A stretch of DNA of 35,980 bases, taken from NCBI GenBank assembly GCA_021803425.1, contig JAJZLN010000029.1:1-35980 (forward strand). The letters are read 5' to 3'. Positions 3,382-35,980 of the stretch are shown here, in pieces. This stretch comes from Microcaldota archaeon. GTDB lineage: Archaea > Micrarchaeota > Micrarchaeia > Micrarchaeales > CABMGC01. Under the pieces are notes generated by a model. It worked only from the letters and a program-made list of their open reading frames with translations. It was not told the origin of the DNA and did no database searches. How positions within the stretch are numbered: the stretch's first letter is position 1; each line of letters begins with the position of its first letter. Made by a program: the position numbers and the translations under genes.

Positions 3382-3852
3382 GTGAATATTTTGACACTAG
3401 CATTGGAAATAGCAGTAATAGCGATTGCATATGTAATGTTATCGGTAGTGGTGCAAAGGAAGGCGTCAAACTATGCAAGGATAAAACAGATCAAGGTAGA
3501 GATGAACGCAAAGATGGCAGAGCTTAAAGCAATGGGCAAAGACGCGACAAAAGAGCTTATGGCGCAGAAGCAAAAGGAGATAACCTCCCTCGCATCCGAG
3601 AGCATGAGGCACCAGCTCAAGGCCACATTCATAATCCTGCCAATATTTTTCATACTTTTCTATGTGGCGCTGCCGCGCATGTTTCCAGGCACGCAGCCAA
3701 CAATAAATGTAATGTCATTCAAGCTTACATATCAGACATTCTTTATAGCCATAGCCTTTATAGGGGGGCTGCTGTCAAGTATGCTTCTTGCCGTATACGA
3801 AAAAGCAAGATCCAAGCAGCAGGCAAAAAGTGCTCCGCAGCCCATACAATGA
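3382..3852 (+). CDS. DUF106 / EMC3-TMCO1-like (Oxa1 superfamily) membrane protein
   Basis: N-terminal TM, charged coiled coil, two C-terminal TMs; GTG start; positioned between adkA and rpl34e as in many archaea. Confidence 0.82.
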   Translation: MNILTLALEIAVIAIAYVMLSVVVQRKASNYARIKQIKVEMNAKMAELKAMGKDATKELMAQKQKEITSLASESMRHQLKATFIILPIFFILFYVALPRMFPGTQPTINVMSFKLTYQTFFIAIAFIGGLLSSMLLAVYEKARSKQQAKSAPQPIQ

Positions 3853-20393: not shown

Positions 20394-21423
20394 ATGGCTT
20401 TTAAGTCGAGTTTGATTAAGGGGGGGGGGGCTAAAGACCAAAAAGATTCCAGTATACGCTGCACTTGCAGCTTCTGCATTTACTATAATAGCAGTTTCAA
20501 TGATGTTGCTGTTCAGCACTACAGTGAAAGCAAGTTCTTATACCTCTAATGTTATAGCGTCTGTTTCTGTAGGTGGAGTATGCTTCATAACTACTACAAA
20601 CACACTTGTTAATTTCGGAAATATAGATCCTACCCAAGGAACTCCCGTTTCAAATGACATAGCGTTTGCAGATTCATTCGGTAATGAACCTGCAAACATT
20701 CTTGTCGCAGGCACAAATTGGATAAATGAACCAGGCTACGGCTCAAACACGTTCTATGTTTCAAACACGCTTTGGAATCCGACATCGGCAAGCCCCGGCG
20801 TTGGCAATGCCTTAACATTATTTACAGGATTTACATCGCTTTTCGACACCCAATTGCAGATTGCGGCTCCGAATCCGTCATTTCCCAGAACTCAAACACA
20901 ACTGTTCGTAGGGGTGAACATACCTGGCGGGGCTCCTGCAGGTCCTTATACCCAGAATATAGTTCCAGGATACTCCTGCCTTACGTATCCAAACCCCTTC
21001 TCAGTTCAGAATGTAATTGCAACTGCAAACGTGCAACCGGCATGCTTCATAAGTCTAAGCACAAATGCGATAGATTTCGGTTCAATAACCCCAACCAACA
21101 GCGTACCAACTGCAAATGCTGTTTCAGTTAATGACCCTGGAGGCAATATACCTGCAAATATACTTGTAGATGCAGGAAACTGGATATCCGGCTCAAATAC
21201 ATTCTATGTTTCAAACACGCTTTGGAATCCTGTAACTGAACCAACATATACTGGAACTCCGCTTAATCTAGCTCCAAATCTTGTAGATACGCTCATACAG
21301 GAGCCAGCGCCCATTATTGCAAATCCAACAACTTCAAATACCCTATACTTTGGTCTTGCAGTACCTGCTGCACAGTCGCCAGGCCTGTACACACAGAACG
21401 TATACATTGAGAATGAGTGCTGA
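20394..21423 (+). CDS. Putative phase-variable secreted/surface protein with two Cys-bounded repeat domains (frame interrupted at G11 tract)
   Basis: ORF track gives 20500..21423, whose start lies inside a signal-peptide hydrophobic core. Reading from ATG 20394 with one G fewer (or two more) gives MAFKSSLIKGGGLKTKKIPVYAALAASAFTIIAVSMMLLFSTTVKASSYTS... continuous to 21423. Confidence 0.7.
20420..20430 (+). repeat. G11 homopolymer (candidate slipped-strand contingency tract)
   Basis: TTTGATTAAGGGGGGGGGGGCTAAAGACC read directly. Confidence 0.9.
20581..20979 (+). repeat. Cys-bounded surface domain, copy A
   Basis: CFITTTNTLVNFGNIDPTQG...ANILVAGTNW...SNTFYVSNTLWNP...LFVGVNIPGGAPAGPYTQNIVPGYSC. 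Confidence 0.75.
21043..21420 (+). repeat. Cys-bounded surface domain, copy B
   Basis: CFISLSTNAIDFGSITPTNS...ANILVDAGNWISGSNTFYVSNTLWNP...LYFGLAVPAAQSPGLYTQNVYIENEC. Confidence 0.75.
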
Positions 21424-22237: not shown

Positions 22238-25200
22238 ATGAAGTATACAATATTAGTAGCATTAGCTTTTGCACACATATTTTTCCTTGCCCATGCCTCA
22301 GCAATGAATAATACCACTATAAGCAATGCCACTTCAGCTTCTGCCACAAACTCACTGCCTAAAAACCAGTCCCTAACCAATAACATTAATACTACCAGCC
22401 AAAATATGCCATACCAGCTCACATTTCCAGCTGAAATAAGCAGTGAAGCATCCCAAACACTCCACAGTAAAGCATCTTCAATTCTATCAAACAGAATAAG
22501 TTCTAGAAAGAGGAATGCAGCATTACCGAATATTTTAGAAGTTACCGAATCAATAAGCAACTTCACCAGCATAAACAAACTGCCAGTTAATCTGCAGAAT
22601 ATTTTTAATGGAACAAATAAGATATATACTGAAAATGTGCTTATTGCTTATGCGGCCTTAAACTCGAGCTTTCAAGCTCAAAATTCATATAACAACACAA
22701 ACTTCACATACGTCAATATATACTCTTCATTATATGGAAATAATGCAACCTCTTTTGCATCATACCTGCCTCCTTTTATTCGGTCACCGGCATTTTCTTC
22801 TCCTAATTCATCAGTTAGAAGCATATATGTCAAGTTAAACAAAGGGGAAGGAGATGCAGTAACGAAAATAATATTTCACGGCAATACTACTGAATATGGA
22901 TTCAATAAGCCCATATACCTCTCATTTAACATAAGCAGCCAAATAAATGATTCGAATATAATAAGTGCAGAATATAATTTTTCTGTAAGTAAGCAATGGA
23001 TTTCAAATTTAAATCTTAGCCCATACCAGATCTCATTATATAAATACGAAAATGGCAAATGGGAGCAAATGCCTACCTTGCTTACTGGATCTAATGGCAC
23101 ATACTTCACATATGTAGGAATCTCAAACTCTTTCTCTACGTATATAGTGTCATTCAATCAAAATGCCAGTGTAGGGGATTTGAATCCTGAATCAGTGACT
23201 TTGCACCTTGGATATAAATTATATTTCTGCGAAGCTGGTGCAAATTATACCTTTTCAACATCAGGATCGCCATTTTCATGGATACAGGATGTTGGCTCCC
23301 CTTCCGGGTCTCCACCAAGCGGAGAAAACGCAAGCATAGGACATCAGTCAAGCAACGTCTGCTCAGCATATACCACTAATTCTACGTTTCCTGGTCTTGC
23401 TGTTGCAGGAATAGGCGTAAACCAGACAAATTATATTCTTTTTAAAAATTCATCAAGCAGCTCATCTTCCTCTAACTTGAAGTATGAAGTTGCTAAGAAC
23501 AATTCTTTTGTATTGATAATGACCGCTTCAGGGTATTATGGATTAACCGGAGTGTCAATCCCAAAAGGCTGCAATGTAGACGAATTTGTAAACAATACCG
23601 ACACATTCGAATCGGCTTATATAGCCACATGCCAAGGGCAGCAGGAAGGGACATATTATGTAAATGATTCTCTTTCCTTTTTAGGGTCTTCTACCCTTGC
23701 TGCGTATGTTTTTCTTCCATACACGCTTACGCTTGATGATAATATACCTACTGGTGAGATAGAAACGAATGGCGCAACGTATCCATCGGGAAGCACAATA
23801 CAGGTAATAGGAACAAATTCAGTTTATGCAATTGCGCCGGCAAATTTTGTATTTGTAAATTGGACGACAAGCAATCCTGTTAATCTATCATTATCCAATT
23901 ATACTAGCAATCCCGCAATCCTTACAGTAAATGGGAATGGGACTCTTACTGCAAATTTCAAAGTACAAACCGAATTTACAGAATCCGGACTTCCAAGCGG
24001 ATCAAGATGGGATGTAATATATGACAATATATTTCTGAGCAGTACATCCCCAACAATCAAGTTTTTTACCAATCCTGGAAACTACACATTTTCAATTCCT
24101 GTCCAAAACATCGCTGGCGCAGCCTATGAGCCATCTCCTTCTTCAGGCTATTTAGTTTCAGGAAATTCAACCCAGATAAATTTCACCCCATTGGTAGCTA
24201 ACATATTCGTCCCCAGCAACTCTGTTGTAGATGTAGGGCAGTATGAAACACTTGTAGCAAATGCATCTGGCGGAGTCCTGCCTTATATTTACAATATATC
24301 TATCTCAAATTCGACATTTCCTTCAATTATAATAAACTCATTTGTATCCCCTAAGACAGTGTTGTCTTTATTTTCAGCAACATTTCAGACAACAATATCA
24401 AATTTAGATAATTCTCCGGACTCAGCAAATGTGGTTGTATCTGATGCATTTCCAGCTAAAGCATATTCTCAATACCGCAGATTTTATGTATATCCTGCCC
24501 TAGCTGCGCCTAGAATAACATCTCCAACTCTACCTATAACTCTTGATATGGGCCAATCTCTTAGTATATCTGCATCTGCTCCTTCAGGCGGAACAGGAAA
24601 TTTCCAATACATATGGTCTGTTGTTAATGGCACTTACTGTCCAGGGTTTATTCAGCAATCCAATACGCTTTCATTTATTTATTCTCCAACATCCCCAACA
24701 AGCTTATGTGAATTTGAGATTACTGCAAAGGATATTGGAACGTCTACGCCCGTCTATGTAACTTCAAATCCTACATCAAAAATATCTGTAGATATATACC
24801 CTGAAACCACTCCTAAAGGAGTAAAATTTTATGTGCCTATAAACATCACAAATTCGCAACCAGCCCCAACCCCTCAACAATTTCAGCAGTTCATTCAATT
24901 AAACCTTCTCAATTACTCAGAATATGCCTCCTATAACGGTAATACTGCAAATTTTGAATTCTTTTATGCAAACGGAACAATTATTCCTTCATGGATAGAA
25001 TCAAACAGCTCGAATATTGTTTCAATCTGGCTCAAGCTTTTAACCAGCATTCCCGCAGACTCAAAGACGACGATATATCTGGGTTTCTATAACAAGAGCT
25101 CAAATATTCTGTCAAATTCCGGCTTATTTGGAATAGGCGAAGCGCCGCAGCTAAGCTTACAATACGGAAAATATGATGATGGACAGAGTGTATTTCTGAG

Positions 25201-26443
25201 TTACTTCAATGGTGATACATCAATCAATAATTTTTCTGTATCAAGTGGGTACAACATCACACAAGTCGTTGGAGTCCAGATGCCAAACGGCAACAATGGC
25301 AATGTATTATATATAACTGGCTATAATAGGCACGACTCCGAAAGATACATATCTTTCGTTTATAATTTTGGATATAAAATTCAGCCAAGTATAATTGAAT
25401 CATCTTCTGAGCTGCATGGAAATCTTGGCACAGCGCAGGGAATAGCAGCGGTTCTCAATTCAACATCAATATCCTCAGCAAGCGGCATAGGCGTCACAAT
25501 GGGATATGGTCAAACATACTTCTCACAGGAACATGAAAATTTTGGATCAGTGTCAGTTGATATCAATCCGCAAGGGTCTTCAGTATCGTCTTGGATATAC
25601 GGCAGCGTATTCTTCTCAGGCGCATCTTCATCTTCGTGGAGCGGTTATATATCGCCGCAATTATACTACACAAATAATGGGTATTCTGGCAATGTATCTT
25701 TTCAACCTATAAAATCTGGAGCATACCTTTATATGAGCAGCTTGGGTGCGTCAGGCCAGAAGAAATATCCTTATAATCTCTATATAAATTGGGAAAGGTC
25801 AAGAGCAATCCCACCAAATGGCGTAATGCCTTACGTCTCTTTCTCAAACATATTCGGTCTAAGCAGATTCATTGAAAGCGGGCTGCCACCAAACTCTATA
25901 TGGAATGTAACTTATGATAATATCATTAATTATTCAAATACAGATTCGATAGCATTTTCAACATTTCCTGGAAAATATCCTTTTTCAATACCAAATCAGA
26001 CTGTAAATGGCATAACGTATTCGCCATCTCCTGAAATAGGCTATCTTATTGCTGGAAATATTACAAACATAATTTTTTCCAAGGTAATAGCCTGCACAAT
26101 ATCATTAAATACATCTTCATTTTCATTTACTGGCATTTATCCTAACACCAGCTTGAACACAGACTTTGCCATAAAAGACACCAATGATGGGGAATTCAAG
26201 GCCCTCATATTATTATATGGAGCAAATTGGTTGGGGTCTATGCAATTTGGAGTAAGCAATACATCATGGTCGAGCTCAATAAATACCCCATTTATAAATT
26301 CAAACAAGCTAAGCGCAAGCCTGACTTCAACAAATCTGTATGCATACCCTAACGGCACAAACGTATATTTCGGAATAAATATACCTGGCGGAATTCCAAA
26401 AGGAAACTATACACAAAACATATACATCGAAAATAGCTGTTAG
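22238..26443 (+). CDS. Giant secreted multidomain surface protein (PGF-pre-PGF-like, ESGLP repeats, DUF2341-like, C-terminal Cys-bounded domain)
   Basis: 1401 aa, signal peptide, many N-x-S/T sites; AEYNFSVSKQWISNLNLSPYQISLYKYENGKWEQMPT; two FxESGLPxxSxWxVxYDN modules; KGVKFYVPINITNSQ...FEFFYANGTIIPSWIESNSSNIVSIWLKL. Confidence 0.82.
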   Translation: MKYTILVALAFAHIFFLAHASAMNNTTISNATSASATNSLPKNQSLTNNINTTSQNMPYQLTFPAEISSEASQTLHSKASSILSNRISSRKRNAALPNILEVTESISNFTSINKLPVNLQNIFNGTNKIYTENVLIAYAALNSSFQAQNSYNNTNFTYVNIYSSLYGNNATSFASYLPPFIRSPAFSSPNSSVRSIYVKLNKGEGDAVTKIIFHGNTTEYGFNKPIYLSFNISSQINDSNIISAEYNFSVSKQWISNLNLSPYQISLYKYENGKWEQMPTLLTGSNGTYFTYVGISNSFSTYIVSFNQNASVGDLNPESVTLHLGYKLYFCEAGANYTFSTSGSPFSWIQDVGSPSGSPPSGENASIGHQSSNVCSAYTTNSTFPGLAVAGIGVNQTNYILFKNSSSSSSSSNLKYEVAKNNSFVLIMTASGYYGLTGVSIPKGCNVDEFVNNTDTFESAYIATCQGQQEGTYYVNDSLSFLGSSTLAAYVFLPYTLTLDDNIPTGEIETNGATYPSGSTIQVIGTNSVYAIAPANFVFVNWTTSNPVNLSLSNYTSNPAILTVNGNGTLTANFKVQTEFTESGLPSGSRWDVIYDNIFLSSTSPTIKFFTNPGNYTFSIPVQNIAGAAYEPSPSSGYLVSGNSTQINFTPLVANIFVPSNSVVDVGQYETLVANASGGVLPYIYNISISNSTFPSIIINSFVSPKTVLSLFSATFQTTISNLDNSPDSANVVVSDAFPAKAYSQYRRFYVYPALAAPRITSPTLPITLDMGQSLSISASAPSGGTGNFQYIWSVVNGTYCPGFIQQSNTLSFIYSPTSPTSLCEFEITAKDIGTSTPVYVTSNPTSKISVDIYPETTPKGVKFYVPINITNSQPAPTPQQFQQFIQLNLLNYSEYASYNGNTANFEFFYANGTIIPSWIESNSSNIVSIWLKLLTSIPADSKTTIYLGFYNKSSNILSNSGLFGIGEAPQLSLQYGKYDDGQSVFLSYFNGDTSINNFSVSSGYNITQVVGVQMPNGNNGNVLYITGYNRHDSERYISFVYNFGYKIQPSIIESSSELHGNLGTAQGIAAVLNSTSISSASGIGVTMGYGQTYFSQEHENFGSVSVDINPQGSSVSSWIYGSVFFSGASSSSWSGYISPQLYYTNNGYSGNVSFQPIKSGAYLYMSSLGASGQKKYPYNLYINWERSRAIPPNGVMPYVSFSNIFGLSRFIESGLPPNSIWNVTYDNIINYSNTDSIAFSTFPGKYPFSIPNQTVNGITYSPSPEIGYLIAGNITNIIFSKVIACTISLNTSSFSFTGIYPNTSLNTDFAIKDTNDGEFKALILLYGANWLGSMQFGVSNTSWSSSINTPFINSNKLSASLTSTNLYAYPNGTNVYFGINIPGGIPKGNYTQNIYIENSC
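26093..26440 (+). repeat. Cys-bounded surface domain, copy C
   Basis: CTISLNTSSFSFTGIYPNTS...LLYGANW...FGVSNTSW...VYFGINIPGGIPKGNYTQNIYIENSC. Confidence 0.7.
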
Positions 26444-31250: not shown

Positions 31251-32612
31251 ATGATGATCATGGCCAATAATGCAGGTAGTCTCGGGGAAAAAGCAAAGCA
31301 ACTGAATGCGCTAGAGGATCAAGTGCGGGCGCAGACTGAAGGATTTTTCTACAGCACGCCATTTATTTCTCTTGAAGTGCAGACGCCATCCGGAATAAAG
31401 GACTTGTCCTTGGATTTCAGGGACATGATGCTGATTTCTGCAATGTCCGAGGGAAATGTCCTTGTAAGCGGCAGAACAGGAGGAGGAAAGACCTCAGTAG
31501 CAAGGGCGATTCAGCGCGGCATCTTTGGAGAATCATGCGCATTTTTCCAGATGGATGCAAAATTCGATGAAAACAGGTTCAGGGATATCGCCTTCGGCAC
31601 CATCAAGGAGGGAGGGAACCTCAGCGACGCAAGCACTCCTGGAAAGGCGCTTACTGCCCCGGCACTCATAATAGATGAATACAACAGGGCTCCGCCAGTC
31701 GTAACAAACATCATACAAGGCTGGCTTACCAACGGCTCAGTAACATTGGACGGGGAGAGGACCATATTTCCTGGAGTCGTTATTCCCGGGAGTGGCCATT
31801 ACCAATGGAAAGTTGCCACTGTAAACGAGGGGATTCAGTATATCGGCACTTCTGGGATAGACAAGGCAAGCAGAAACAGATTTGCAATAGAGATGCCTTT
31901 CGACATGTTTCCCCCTACGGATGTAGACAGGAGAAATCTCATCGCGCATGGAAAATTCAAGGAAGATAGCGTTCCAGAGAGTGTGACCGACATGAGCAGT
32001 GCCATGTTCAAACTGATAAGGACCACAAAGGAAGTACCCGTCGACCCTCTTGTCACGGAATTTCTGCTATACGTCCAAAAGGGAGACCTCTGCTATAATT
32101 CGCCTACTGGCACAAAGCTCGGGTTCGATGAATTTACATTGGAGATATGCAAGGGCTGCCATGCAGCCGCTCAGAACAAGGAGATATGTGGAATGACATT
32201 CGCCCCTCCTGAAAAGTCCATTCCAGAAGTGCTTTCCCTTGCAAGGGCGTTTGCAATATACAGGAATTACAGGATTCCAGAATCCGAGCTTACAGTATCG
32301 CTTAGTGACATGTCTGCAGTAATGCCGTTTGTAATGTTCCATAAAATAGATATTGCTGATGGATGGGCGCAGAAATACGGTGGAGGAAGCACATGGTATG
32401 CAACGCAGATGGTTATAAAAGAGATGCAGAGCGCATGGATTCAAGGCACAAGAGCCCTTGCCCCTGTAATAGAGGCAGAGTATGGGGAAAAACAGCTATC
32501 TCCCAGCATGCAGGCTTCAAAAGAAGAAGTGCTTCTTTCAAATCCCAAAGTGGGTCAGGTAAGCGATATGATTCAGCTCTACAGGAAAAGACCAGAGAGA
32601 CTGCATACATAA
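31251..32612 (+). CDS. MoxR-type AAA+ ATPase
   Basis: VLVSGRTGGGKTSVARAI Walker A, ALIIDEYNRAPPVVTNIIQGWL Walker B/sensor region, DKASRNRFAIEMPFDMFPP. Confidence 0.82.
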   Translation: MMIMANNAGSLGEKAKQLNALEDQVRAQTEGFFYSTPFISLEVQTPSGIKDLSLDFRDMMLISAMSEGNVLVSGRTGGGKTSVARAIQRGIFGESCAFFQMDAKFDENRFRDIAFGTIKEGGNLSDASTPGKALTAPALIIDEYNRAPPVVTNIIQGWLTNGSVTLDGERTIFPGVVIPGSGHYQWKVATVNEGIQYIGTSGIDKASRNRFAIEMPFDMFPPTDVDRRNLIAHGKFKEDSVPESVTDMSSAMFKLIRTTKEVPVDPLVTEFLLYVQKGDLCYNSPTGTKLGFDEFTLEICKGCHAAAQNKEICGMTFAPPEKSIPEVLSLARAFAIYRNYRIPESELTVSLSDMSAVMPFVMFHKIDIADGWAQKYGGGSTWYATQMVIKEMQSAWIQGTRALAPVIEAEYGEKQLSPSMQASKEEVLLSNPKVGQVSDMIQLYRKRPERLHT

Positions 32613-32636: not shown

Positions 32637-33299
32637 ATGAACAAACAAACAAAGCCGAATCAAATGCCAAAGGAAACCTGGGAGACAGTGAAGCGCGGCT
32701 TAGACATAAAGATAAATACCAAACAAATTGAGAGGGACGCAAAAGCCGCGCAGAGAGTCGCTGCACGAAAAGAAGAAACACAAATCAGACTGCCAATGAT
32801 AATCGAACAAAACATAGATTATCAAGGAACAAAGGACATTGCAAAAAAGCACAACGGAGCCCTAATCAAGCTCGAAAGACTGGTACAGCTACTCAACGAT
32901 CCTGATTTCGTTAAGTCCATAGAAGACACAAAGTCATACAAAAGAGATAGATATACATTTTTTTGGATTGACACAGTAGGTACCAATCTAAATGGCTACT
33001 ACAGAATGAATCCGCAAGGAAAGACATTAGACGAGATGTTCACATTCATATCAAGATTATTTGATAGTGAGGTCAAAAAAGTCCCAAGCAATGAAATACT
33101 CTATTTCAAAAAAACAGATCTGCCTCTGGCTGTGGAAGTCTTTAGCAAGGTCAGTTTTTTGCATGCACGACTGGAAGTAAGTGGTGATGGCTTTTGGCCT
33201 TACTCTACTGCTCCGCTTGTGGTTGTTGAGCAAGCCTCAGCCAAGCCAGTCACTGTATGGCAGCGGATCAGCAAACCCTTTCGACACCTTAAAAAATGA
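32637..33299 (+). CDS. Unknown protein, copy 1 of a duplicated MoxR/VWA-associated family
   Basis: Intact ORF; N-terminal ~138 aa about 80% identical by eye to the ORF starting at 35289/35298. Confidence 0.75.
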   Translation: MNKQTKPNQMPKETWETVKRGLDIKINTKQIERDAKAAQRVAARKEETQIRLPMIIEQNIDYQGTKDIAKKHNGALIKLERLVQLLNDPDFVKSIEDTKSYKRDRYTFFWIDTVGTNLNGYYRMNPQGKTLDEMFTFISRLFDSEVKKVPSNEILYFKKTDLPLAVEVFSKVSFLHARLEVSGDGFWPYSTAPLVVVEQASAKPVTVWQRISKPFRHLKK

Positions 33300-33303
33300 T
33301 TAA

Positions 33304-35292
33304 ATGGAAGATGAACAGATTGATGTAAAACAGATTCTAAGGTCTCAGCTAGCTGCGAAAGGCTGGGATATTATTTACAAACTGGATGTCGAAAGAAAGG
33401 ATACTCCGAATCTTTTTGAGGCAAGCATGGAATCTTATTCTTGGCAACTGAATGTAACTTTAGACACTGCTTTTGAGGAAAAGCTCGGTAAAATAGCAGA
33501 AAAATCAAAGCTTAACATTCAAACTCCGGTTCAAAAGGCGCTGCGCAGCATTGTAGACCATGAAATGGGGCACTGGGAGCTATGTCCCAGCGATATAGTC
33601 TATCTTGAAAGCATGCTCAATTCAGTAAGCAAGGGCCTGTCGAACGGAGGCATGTCAGAACAGGAGGTAAAGCAGTTCTCCCCCTATGTGACGAACATGT
33701 TTTCCGATGCAGTAATCAACTGCAGCCATATGCGTGAGAAGGATTTCAGCGAGGGTTACGGGCTGTTGCAGGCATCAAGAGCATATACTTCACCATCCGC
33801 TTTGGAGAATGGCAAACCTCATTTTGAAGATTATTTCGGCATGTTCATAGACATTCAGATGAAGCTTGCAAGAGACAAAGGCATTAGAAAAATAGGAGAA
33901 AGATACGTAAATAATTACTCTGCAATAGCAAAGATGAGCGAACAGCTTCTTGGAACATTGATAGGAAAGGATCTTGCCAAAAAAGCGTTTTCTAATTCAC
34001 TTAGAAAAGAAGACATGGACGATATTGTATATGTCCTTAAGGACAAGGATTCATGGAACATGAAATCAAAGCGCTTCGCACAGATAATTGCACCTTACCT
34101 CAAAAACCATATCGATGACATGCAGAAAAACCAACATCTTATGCCATCGCTTTCGGGCATTTGCGTAAGCGATTCTGAGGATTCACAAGAGACATCTGAA
34201 AATGACAGGACGATTATAAAACAGGGATTAGACAGGCTTGAAGCCGAAGCCAAAGAAGAATCCGAAAAAACTGGAGGCGAAGAAGGCGCCAAAGCACGCA
34301 AAAAAGGCAAGGACGAAGATGCGTGGGAAAGGGTCGGCCAAAAGATAGCGGGATACGGGGGCACTGATATGAAATATGCCGCAAGACATGAAGTTTATGA
34401 TGAACTGTATAGGCGCACAGCGGGGCAGATTGTCCTCAACTTCCTGGACAAGGGGGAAGAAGCCCCAAGCCTTACCCTTTTCCATATGGCCAGGAGAAGA
34501 TTAGAAGATGGAGAACAGCTTGACAATACTGTTGCATGGGAAAGAACCATTTTTGTAAATGGTGAGCCGTTGCTGTTCAAGAAAGAGATGCCTTTTGATA
34601 TAGACTCGCCAGGGCCATCAAGCAAGGGAAGCTATGAGGACATATTATTCATAGTGGATGTTTCAGGAAGCATGGGATGGCAGGACATTCCGCTCGACGG
34701 CTCAAAGTACGATATGGCTATAAGGACAGTATATTCAGTAATGAATTACCTCGAGAAGAGCGGGAAGGCTCCTTTCCTGAACTACGGTCTCATGCAGTTC
34801 AGTTACGATACCGACTGGTCTGGGTGGAAGAACTACCGGCAGTCTGGAGCTTTAACAAAAAGACTGTTCACAGGCTTCCAAGGAGGCGGCACACTGCTGG
34901 ACCCGGACAAGGTCAATGCTGCTGATTCGAGGCCGAGCAAACACTTCCTTACAATAATGATAAGCGACGGCGAGATAGCCAATTCAGAAGAGGCATTCAA
35001 TGCGTGTTCAAGGGTTGCTGTAGACCATAAGAATGACTTTGTGCTGTTTCAGATAGAGTCCGAAAGCGATTTCGGAGATAAGATGAGGGGCATCGGAGTG
35101 CCGGTCATATCTATAAACCAGCCAGAAGACCTTATAGGAATAACACTGGACATTGTAAGGTCAAAATATGCACCAATATTCAGGCAAGGCGCAAGCCCAG
35201 CTAGAAATACTAAAAAAGAGGATCTGCTGGATCAGGCAAGGGACAGGGACATCACTCAGCCCAAACCAAGCGCTAAAAAGATACACCCATGA
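33304..35292 (+). CDS. HEMGH putative metallopeptidase domain fused to VWA (MIDAS) domain protein
   Basis: SIVDHEMGHWELCPSD near N-terminus (HEMGH 33559-33573); ILFIVDVSGSMGWQD MIDAS motif and IMISDGEI in the C-terminal part. Confidence 0.8.
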   Translation: MEDEQIDVKQILRSQLAAKGWDIIYKLDVERKDTPNLFEASMESYSWQLNVTLDTAFEEKLGKIAEKSKLNIQTPVQKALRSIVDHEMGHWELCPSDIVYLESMLNSVSKGLSNGGMSEQEVKQFSPYVTNMFSDAVINCSHMREKDFSEGYGLLQASRAYTSPSALENGKPHFEDYFGMFIDIQMKLARDKGIRKIGERYVNNYSAIAKMSEQLLGTLIGKDLAKKAFSNSLRKEDMDDIVYVLKDKDSWNMKSKRFAQIIAPYLKNHIDDMQKNQHLMPSLSGICVSDSEDSQETSENDRTIIKQGLDRLEAEAKEESEKTGGEEGAKARKKGKDEDAWERVGQKIAGYGGTDMKYAARHEVYDELYRRTAGQIVLNFLDKGEEAPSLTLFHMARRRLEDGEQLDNTVAWERTIFVNGEPLLFKKEMPFDIDSPGPSSKGSYEDILFIVDVSGSMGWQDIPLDGSKYDMAIRTVYSVMNYLEKSGKAPFLNYGLMQFSYDTDWSGWKNYRQSGALTKRLFTGFQGGGTLLDPDKVNAADSRPSKHFLTIMISDGEIANSEEAFNACSRVAVDHKNDFVLFQIESESDFGDKMRGIGVPVISINQPEDLIGITLDIVRSKYAPIFRQGASPARNTKKEDLLDQARDRDITQPKPSAKKIHP

Positions 35293-35980
35293 TTATCATG
35301 CAAAACAAGCAAATAAACCCAAATCAAATGTCAAAGGAAACGTGGGAGGCAGTGAAGCGCGGCTTAGGCATAGTGATAAATCAGGATGAAGTCGAGAGGG
35401 ATGCAAAAGCTGCGCAGAGAGTCGCTGCACGAAAAGAAGAAACACAAATCAGACTGCCAATGATAATTGAACAAGAAGCAGATTATGAAGAATCAAAGAA
35501 CATTGCAAAAAAGCACAACGGAGCCCTAATCAAACTCGAAAGATTGCCACAGCTACTCAACGATCCTGATTTCGTTGAGTCCATAGAAAGCACAGAATCA
35601 TACAAAAGGGATGGATATATTCGGTTTTGGATTGACACAGTGGGCACCAATCTAGACGGCCACTACAGAATGAATCCGCAAGGAAAGACATTAGACGAGA
35701 TGTTCACATTCATATCAGATAGTTTCGACATAAATGTCGAAAAAATTCCACACAATGAAAGAGCCCATTTCCGTAAAAGAAATCAGCCTCTGTCCGTGAA
35801 TGTCAGGAGGTCAGACTTCGAATACTGGCGTCTGATCGTGGGCGATCTCAGCCCTTCCTTTGTCGCTCCTGTGGTGGTTGTTGAGCAAGCCTCAGTCCAG
35901 CCAGTCGCCATACGGCAGCGGATCATCAAATTTCCCTCCAATACCTTACCACCCCCTCAAGCCTTAAAATATAGATATCC
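35289..35980 (+). CDS. Unknown protein, copy 2 of the duplicated MoxR/VWA-associated family (3' end beyond window)
   Basis: Open frame from ATG 35289 (ATGA overlap with VWA gene) or ATG 35298 to the window end: MQNKQINPNQMSKETWEAVKRGLGIVINQDEVERDAKAAQRVAARKEETQIRLPMIIEQ...; no stop, hence missing from ORF track. Confidence 0.8.
   Translation, partial: MIIMQNKQINPNQMSKETWEAVKRGLGIVINQDEVERDAKAAQRVAARKEETQIRLPMIIEQEADYEESKNIAKKHNGALIKLERLPQLLNDPDFVESIESTESYKRDGYIRFWIDTVGTNLDGHYRMNPQGKTLDEMFTFISDSFDINVEKIPHNERAHFRKRNQPLSVNVRRSDFEYWRLIVGDLSPSFVAPVVVVEQASVQPVAIRQRIIKFPSNTLPPPQALKYRY

Follow-up and report, generated by a model that had tools for sequence, protein, structure and literature searches.

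DGR-target-type variable proteins with apparently drifted variable regions flank a vWA gene in a Micrarchaeota genome

Why are two neighbouring paralogues similar at their ends and strongly diverged in between? This question is raised by the window, the stretch of 35,980 nucleotides analyzed here, which corresponds to contig C14 of a Micrarchaeota MAG (G000; 881 kb in 33 contigs, 93% complete). Two copies of a variable protein, in neither of which a Pfam search recognised any domain, flank a gene encoding a vWA protein (Table 1). The assembly breaks inside this paralogue array, since the contig ends at position 35980 and cuts off copy 2.

Table 1. Features of the paralogue array and of its neighbourhood in the window.
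Feature	Position	Strand	Evidence
MoxR-like AAA ATPase, 453 aa, first gene of apparent operon	31251..32612	+	Weak Pfam AAA_5 (E 0.001); Walker-type motif GRTGGGKTS
Copy 1, DGR-target-type variable protein, 220 aa, between MoxR and vWA	32637..33299	+	Alignment with copies 2-4 and DGR targets of relatives
Head module of copy 1, ~47 codons; found in the local copies reaching it, copy 4 included; absent from relatives' members	32637..32780	+	Alignment, dN
VR-equivalent of copy 1 (PLAV...TAP), strongly drifted	33123..33215	+	Same place as VR of G003/G040 targets
Conserved block directly 3′ of copy 1 VR (LVVVEQAS ... QRIS), at the position expected of an IMH-like flank	33216..33270	+	Alignment
vWA protein, 662 aa; HExGHWxxCPxD zinc-like motif near N-terminus, MIDAS DVSGSM in C-terminal part	33304..35292	+	Weak Pfam VWA (E 7e-4)
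Copy 2 of variable protein, open at contig end	35289..35978	+	Alignment
VR-equivalent of copy 2	35787..35870	+	Site departures from relatives' VRs
Conserved block 3′ of copy 2 VR (VVVVEQAS ... QRII)	35871..35925	+	Alignment

The original prediction described a conserved N-terminal part of about 138 codons with about 80% protein identity and unchanged DNA blocks of more than 50 bp, followed by a strongly diverged middle and then by a shared block. The alignment agrees with this description throughout. Copies 1 and 2 share 80.7% of protein and 86.7% of DNA positions over 32638-33054 (first ~140 codons), drop to 44% and 60%, respectively, over 33060-33215 (~50 codons), and show 50% and 71% after the diverged middle, where blocks are again common to both. 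A 56-base block (GCGCAGAGAG...ATGATAAT) is identical at 32748-32803 and 35412-35467; downstream of the middle, GTGGTTGTTGAGCAAGCCTCAG (33219-33240 and 35874-35895) and GGCAGCGGATCA (33259-33270 and 35914-35925) are also identical. Even once gaps are optimised, divergence is not uniform along the gene: the middle carries 1.2 nucleotide differences per codon versus 0.48 elsewhere, and none of 20,000 column shuffles yielded a 50-codon window as diverged.

The further cassette copies that had been sought exist: two of them, copy 3 (cut at its 5′ end) and copy 4, open contig C28 of the same MAG (positions 1-1181). C28 begins within the 56-base block common to the copies and is probably the continuation of the window contig. 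Two distant family members are carried by contigs C27 and C26 of this genome. The copies are made of three modules: (i) a head common to copies 1, 2 and 4 (copy 3 being truncated in this part), (ii) a core common to copies 1 to 3 and (iii) a variable end. Copy 4 retains the ~47-codon head but continues with the core of another subfamily, dN between copies 1 and 4 rising from 0.07 in the head to 0.91 immediately after it.

A search of 60 genomes found members of this target family in 15, counting the window genome. G003 (Candidatus Micrarchaeota isolate REEA73), which belongs to the same genus as the window genome and carries close homologues of its copies, accounts for 14 matches. TR/VR pairs from relatives of the same genus and the same order have 15-19 of 25-26 template adenines altered and none of the 69-70 other bases. 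In REEA73, comparison of the TR (L044:217-311) with two targets of locus L051 revealed changes at 16/26 and 19/26 template adenines and at 0/69 other bases. In G040, where target, template repeat and RT gene are adjacent, the TR (L045:3990-4084) and the VR (3484-3578), both of 95 nt, differ at 15/25 template adenines and at 0/70 other bases. Such a confinement of changes to template adenines is a DGR signature, and RT genes (RVT_1 matches) are present in G003, G017, G040, G047 and G054. A DGR is therefore the diversifying agent of the family in these relatives, a point missed by the original prediction.

Four genes of REEA73 and one of G006 are the closest homologues of the window copies; their VRs vary at codon positions 1 and 2 and hardly at all at position 3. 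Among those of REEA73, VR dS is only 0-0.04 versus 0.25-0.68 for the core; between REEA73 and G006, it is 0.09 with a saturated core (Fisher p from 0.014 to 1.5e-9 for the silent-site contrast between VR and core). VRs so close at silent sites, despite cores at a dS of 0.25 to saturation, suggest that these regions were rewritten from a common template. A degenerate pattern search for the template of the window's own subfamily in G000, G003, G006 and G012 returned only targets (the four of G003 and the one of G006), and the probes used on viral contigs found no relatives of the target protein.

In the window genome, the VR also lies near the C-terminus, as in DGR targets, but the silent-site pattern is reversed. 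The dS of the middle versus that of the core is 1.37 versus 0.20 between copies 1 and 2 (Fisher p 8e-4), saturated versus 0.14 between copies 1 and 3 (p 1e-6) and 0.77 versus 0.13 between copies 2 and 3 (p 2e-3). The VRs are thus old (dS 0.8 to saturated, values that alignment across indels may inflate) and the upstream part is young (0.13-0.2), the opposite of what is seen in relatives with DGR signatures. Gene conversion at the flanks, as initially proposed, agrees with a silent-site divergence that in the middle far exceeds that of the upstream part, a difference that is also expected from recent duplication. In the core, dN is close to dS among copies 1 to 3 (0.10 vs 0.20, 0.13 vs 0.13 and 0.15 vs 0.14), which suggests relaxed or diversifying selection on this module.

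Traces of DGR writing differ between copies. The VR of copy 2 departs from those of relatives at 14/24 sites of the variable class versus 9/78 constant sites (p 9e-6), and that of copy 1, with a weaker signal, at 15/25 of the relatives' variable sites versus 30/80 constant ones (p 0.04); for copy 3, the adenine-site signature is not significant (p 0.17). The VRs of copies 1 and 3 have drifted at all codon positions. Judged by this site pattern, the VR of copy 2 is the one in the window that still most resembles a DGR-written region.

Neither of the two partners expected of an active DGR, RT and template, was found in this genome. No RVT_1 match was detected in the 93%-complete assembly at E<0.1 by a search that was positive in control genomes, and tblastn with the RT of REEA73, a probe without positive control in G000, gave no match. 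The 33 contigs likewise contain no match to the REEA73 template or to a degenerate VR/TR pattern, these DNA probes also being without positive control in G000. As regards the fold, profile searches of the target family against Pfam, PHROGs and PDB returned nothing convincing, and an AlphaFold2 prediction based on only five sequences had a pLDDT of 35 and did not establish a C-type lectin fold.

Given the reversed silent-site pattern and the searches that found neither RT nor template, the simplest account is that the DGR was lost, that the old VRs have drifted and that conversion or duplication homogenised head and core. We consider it likely that the window paralogues are DGR-target-type variable proteins whose VRs were written by a DGR and are now drifting, their heads and cores being homogenised. 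They would descend from DGR targets of the kind whose C-terminal ~95-nt VR is rewritten at template adenines in relatives. Their VRs would have been written for the last time by a DGR that has since been lost here, or that has its RT and template in the ~7% of the genome absent from the assembly, and would have drifted at all codon positions since then. Shared head and core would have been kept alike through tandem duplication and gene conversion. More speculatively, the proteins may be interchangeable binding modules, the common head docking and the variable end recognising, that could work with the MoxR/vWA pair flanked by their genes. The initial account by conversion and diversification was thus partly right. 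The recognition module that it placed in the middle fits, because this segment corresponds in position to the DGR variable region of relatives; its active diversification is unsupported in this genome, where silent drift is high and RT and template were not found. More generally, with no retroelement detected in this genome, the target family has VRs that age while the remainder of the gene is homogenised, so that region-wise silent-site divergence dates the last writing.

The best surviving alternative, which we nevertheless regard as unlikely, is that a DGR is still active in this genome, its RT and template being unassembled and the different VRs deriving from different templates. The MAG is 93% complete, contig ends lie inside the array, and most RT-bearing genomes have a single detected RT match, which could easily be lost from an assembly; furthermore, the VR of copy 2 is near those of relatives (VR dS 0.25 versus core dS 0.57). 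However, DGR writing keeps third positions constant, and silent third-position changes are numerous in the VR (18/34 between copies 1 and 2, 25/36 between copies 1 and 3); nor was any template-like sequence found on the 33 contigs. A plain paralogue mosaic, in which the copies recombined and a binding domain was under positive selection in a lineage devoid of any DGR history, is less probable still. It would accommodate the clear head swap of copy 4 and the core dN near dS, but not readily a family shared with DGR targets, a VR at the same place and the site pattern of copy 2. Finally, an assembly chimera, in which collapsed repeats join the flanks of one copy to the middle of another, can practically be set aside: the contig does end in copy 2 and C28 does start at the shared block, but the lengths of the open frames are coherent, and differences between copies 1 and 2 are spread over the whole gene, including the flanks.

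The MoxR and the MIDAS-bearing vWA genes are one gene apart, copy 1 occupying this slot, and the pair is conserved in relatives. Homologues of the vWA gene were found in six other genomes among the 118 searched (loci L079-L084). In five of these six loci, a MoxR homologue adjoins the vWA gene, just upstream, or lies one gene away; at the sixth, the contig end is too near for one to be seen. The HE..HW motif is found in all seven vWA loci compared and the MIDAS in six of them, suggesting that the N-terminal part of the protein is a metal-binding or peptidase-like domain fused to vWA. In these relatives, the gene intervening between MoxR and vWA varies by lineage, with unrelated products of 334, 458 and 251 aa, and two loci lack it; it looks like a replaceable third component. 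That these third genes could be homologues of the variable protein was considered and rejected, as no convincing similarity was found. Of the seven genomes in which this vWA gene was found, the window genome is thus alone in having a DGR-target-type protein beside MoxR/vWA; family members inspected elsewhere are either isolated or next to one another. Since the link is a single case, a function shared with the MoxR/vWA pair is put forward as a conjecture.

Thirty RT loci (L158-L187), obtained by searching 301 genomes of the phylum, were also examined. In 19 of these 30 RT genes, the frame changes at the linker preceding KADIxHYFD, each time with a slippage-prone tract at this place: poly-G (8-11) in 15 loci, poly-C (9) in one and AG repeats in three. 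The frame is kept in only two tract-bearing RTs (G10 in G158, AG5 in G136), so that 19 of 21 are out of frame, versus none of the seven verified tract-free RTs. Of the remaining loci, L185 is apparently tract-free and in frame, its linker not having been located, and L159 is cut by a contig end. Tract and frame are associated (Fisher p 3e-5), and the in-frame share among tract-bearing RTs is below one third (p 0.013); both p values are optimistic because the genomes are related and the loci not fully independent. In ~300 kb of other Micrarchaeota DNA, no other G or C run of at least 8 was found except one in the window (20420-20430). In the RT linker of G180 (L165), two pieces with 9 and 11 G are joined by NN, which suggests tract-length differences among reads.

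These patterns suggest that the tract is a phase-variable switch of hypermutation, slippage switching being the best reading; the frame split may also result from recoding at the tract or from consensus errors. We tentatively propose, as a possibility somewhat short of even, that hypermutation is phase-gated in Micrarchaeota. The RT tract, which apparently arose more than once, would be off in most assemblies and only rare cells would mutate their recognition proteins; lineages like that of the window would keep a frozen repertoire of targets beside a MoxR/vWA machine. No report of slippage tracts in DGR RTs was found in the literature searched, which did not include Paul 2017 (Nat Microbiol). 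Should the tracts truly work as switches, phase variation and DGR hypermutation, both known as engines of diversity, would be stacked, and this would potentially be more important than the paralogue finding.

Elsewhere in the window, in the segment 20394-20560, the run of 11 G mentioned above follows an ATG at 20394 (MAFKSSLIK-GGG). A hydrophobic signal-like stretch (LKTKKIPVYAALAASAFTIIAVSMMLLFS), in another frame than this ATG, leads into the ORF 20500-21423. Together, they look like a candidate phase-variable secreted protein, off in this assembly. A secreted-looking protein of 1401 aa, encoded at 22238-26443, is 37-38% identical to this ORF in its C-terminal part.

Three known systems can be compared with these observations. 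Simple-sequence contingency loci, known mainly from bacteria, undergo phase variation by slippage. The Micrarchaeota tracts resemble them in that a homopolymer or dinucleotide tract splits an ORF, but they are located in the DGR reverse transcriptases of relatives and not in the window paralogues. The DGR variable proteins of DPANN archaea (AvpA and relatives; Handa 2016 PMC5006420, Roux 2021 PMC8144416, and Paul 2015/2017 as presented in citing papers) are, like the window proteins, short, devoid of recognisable domains, variable in a C-terminal segment and encoded by several targets per genome, and TR/VR pairs and RT are found in close relatives of the window genome. The window differs from them by RT and template not having been found, by the silent drift of its VRs and by its shared local head module; the C-type lectin fold is not demonstrated for its proteins. 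The third system, bacterial MoxR-vWA ternary conflict systems with DGR-diversified sensors carrying FGS/CLec domains (Kaur 2020 PMC7159879; PNAS 2024 PMC10907252), likewise associates AAA ATPase and vWA genes with a DGR-target-type protein. A VMAP, iSTAND, FtsH or beta-propeller part is the recognised third component of such systems. The window locus differs in being archaeal, in a target encoded by a separate gene unfused to vWA and in that VMAP, iSTAND, trypsin and EAD parts were not identified; the association does not recur at the other MoxR/vWA loci compared, which have unrelated third genes or none. Overall, a DPANN archaeon is seen here to have DGR-type targets next to a MoxR/vWA pair, a combination that earlier reports describe for bacteria.
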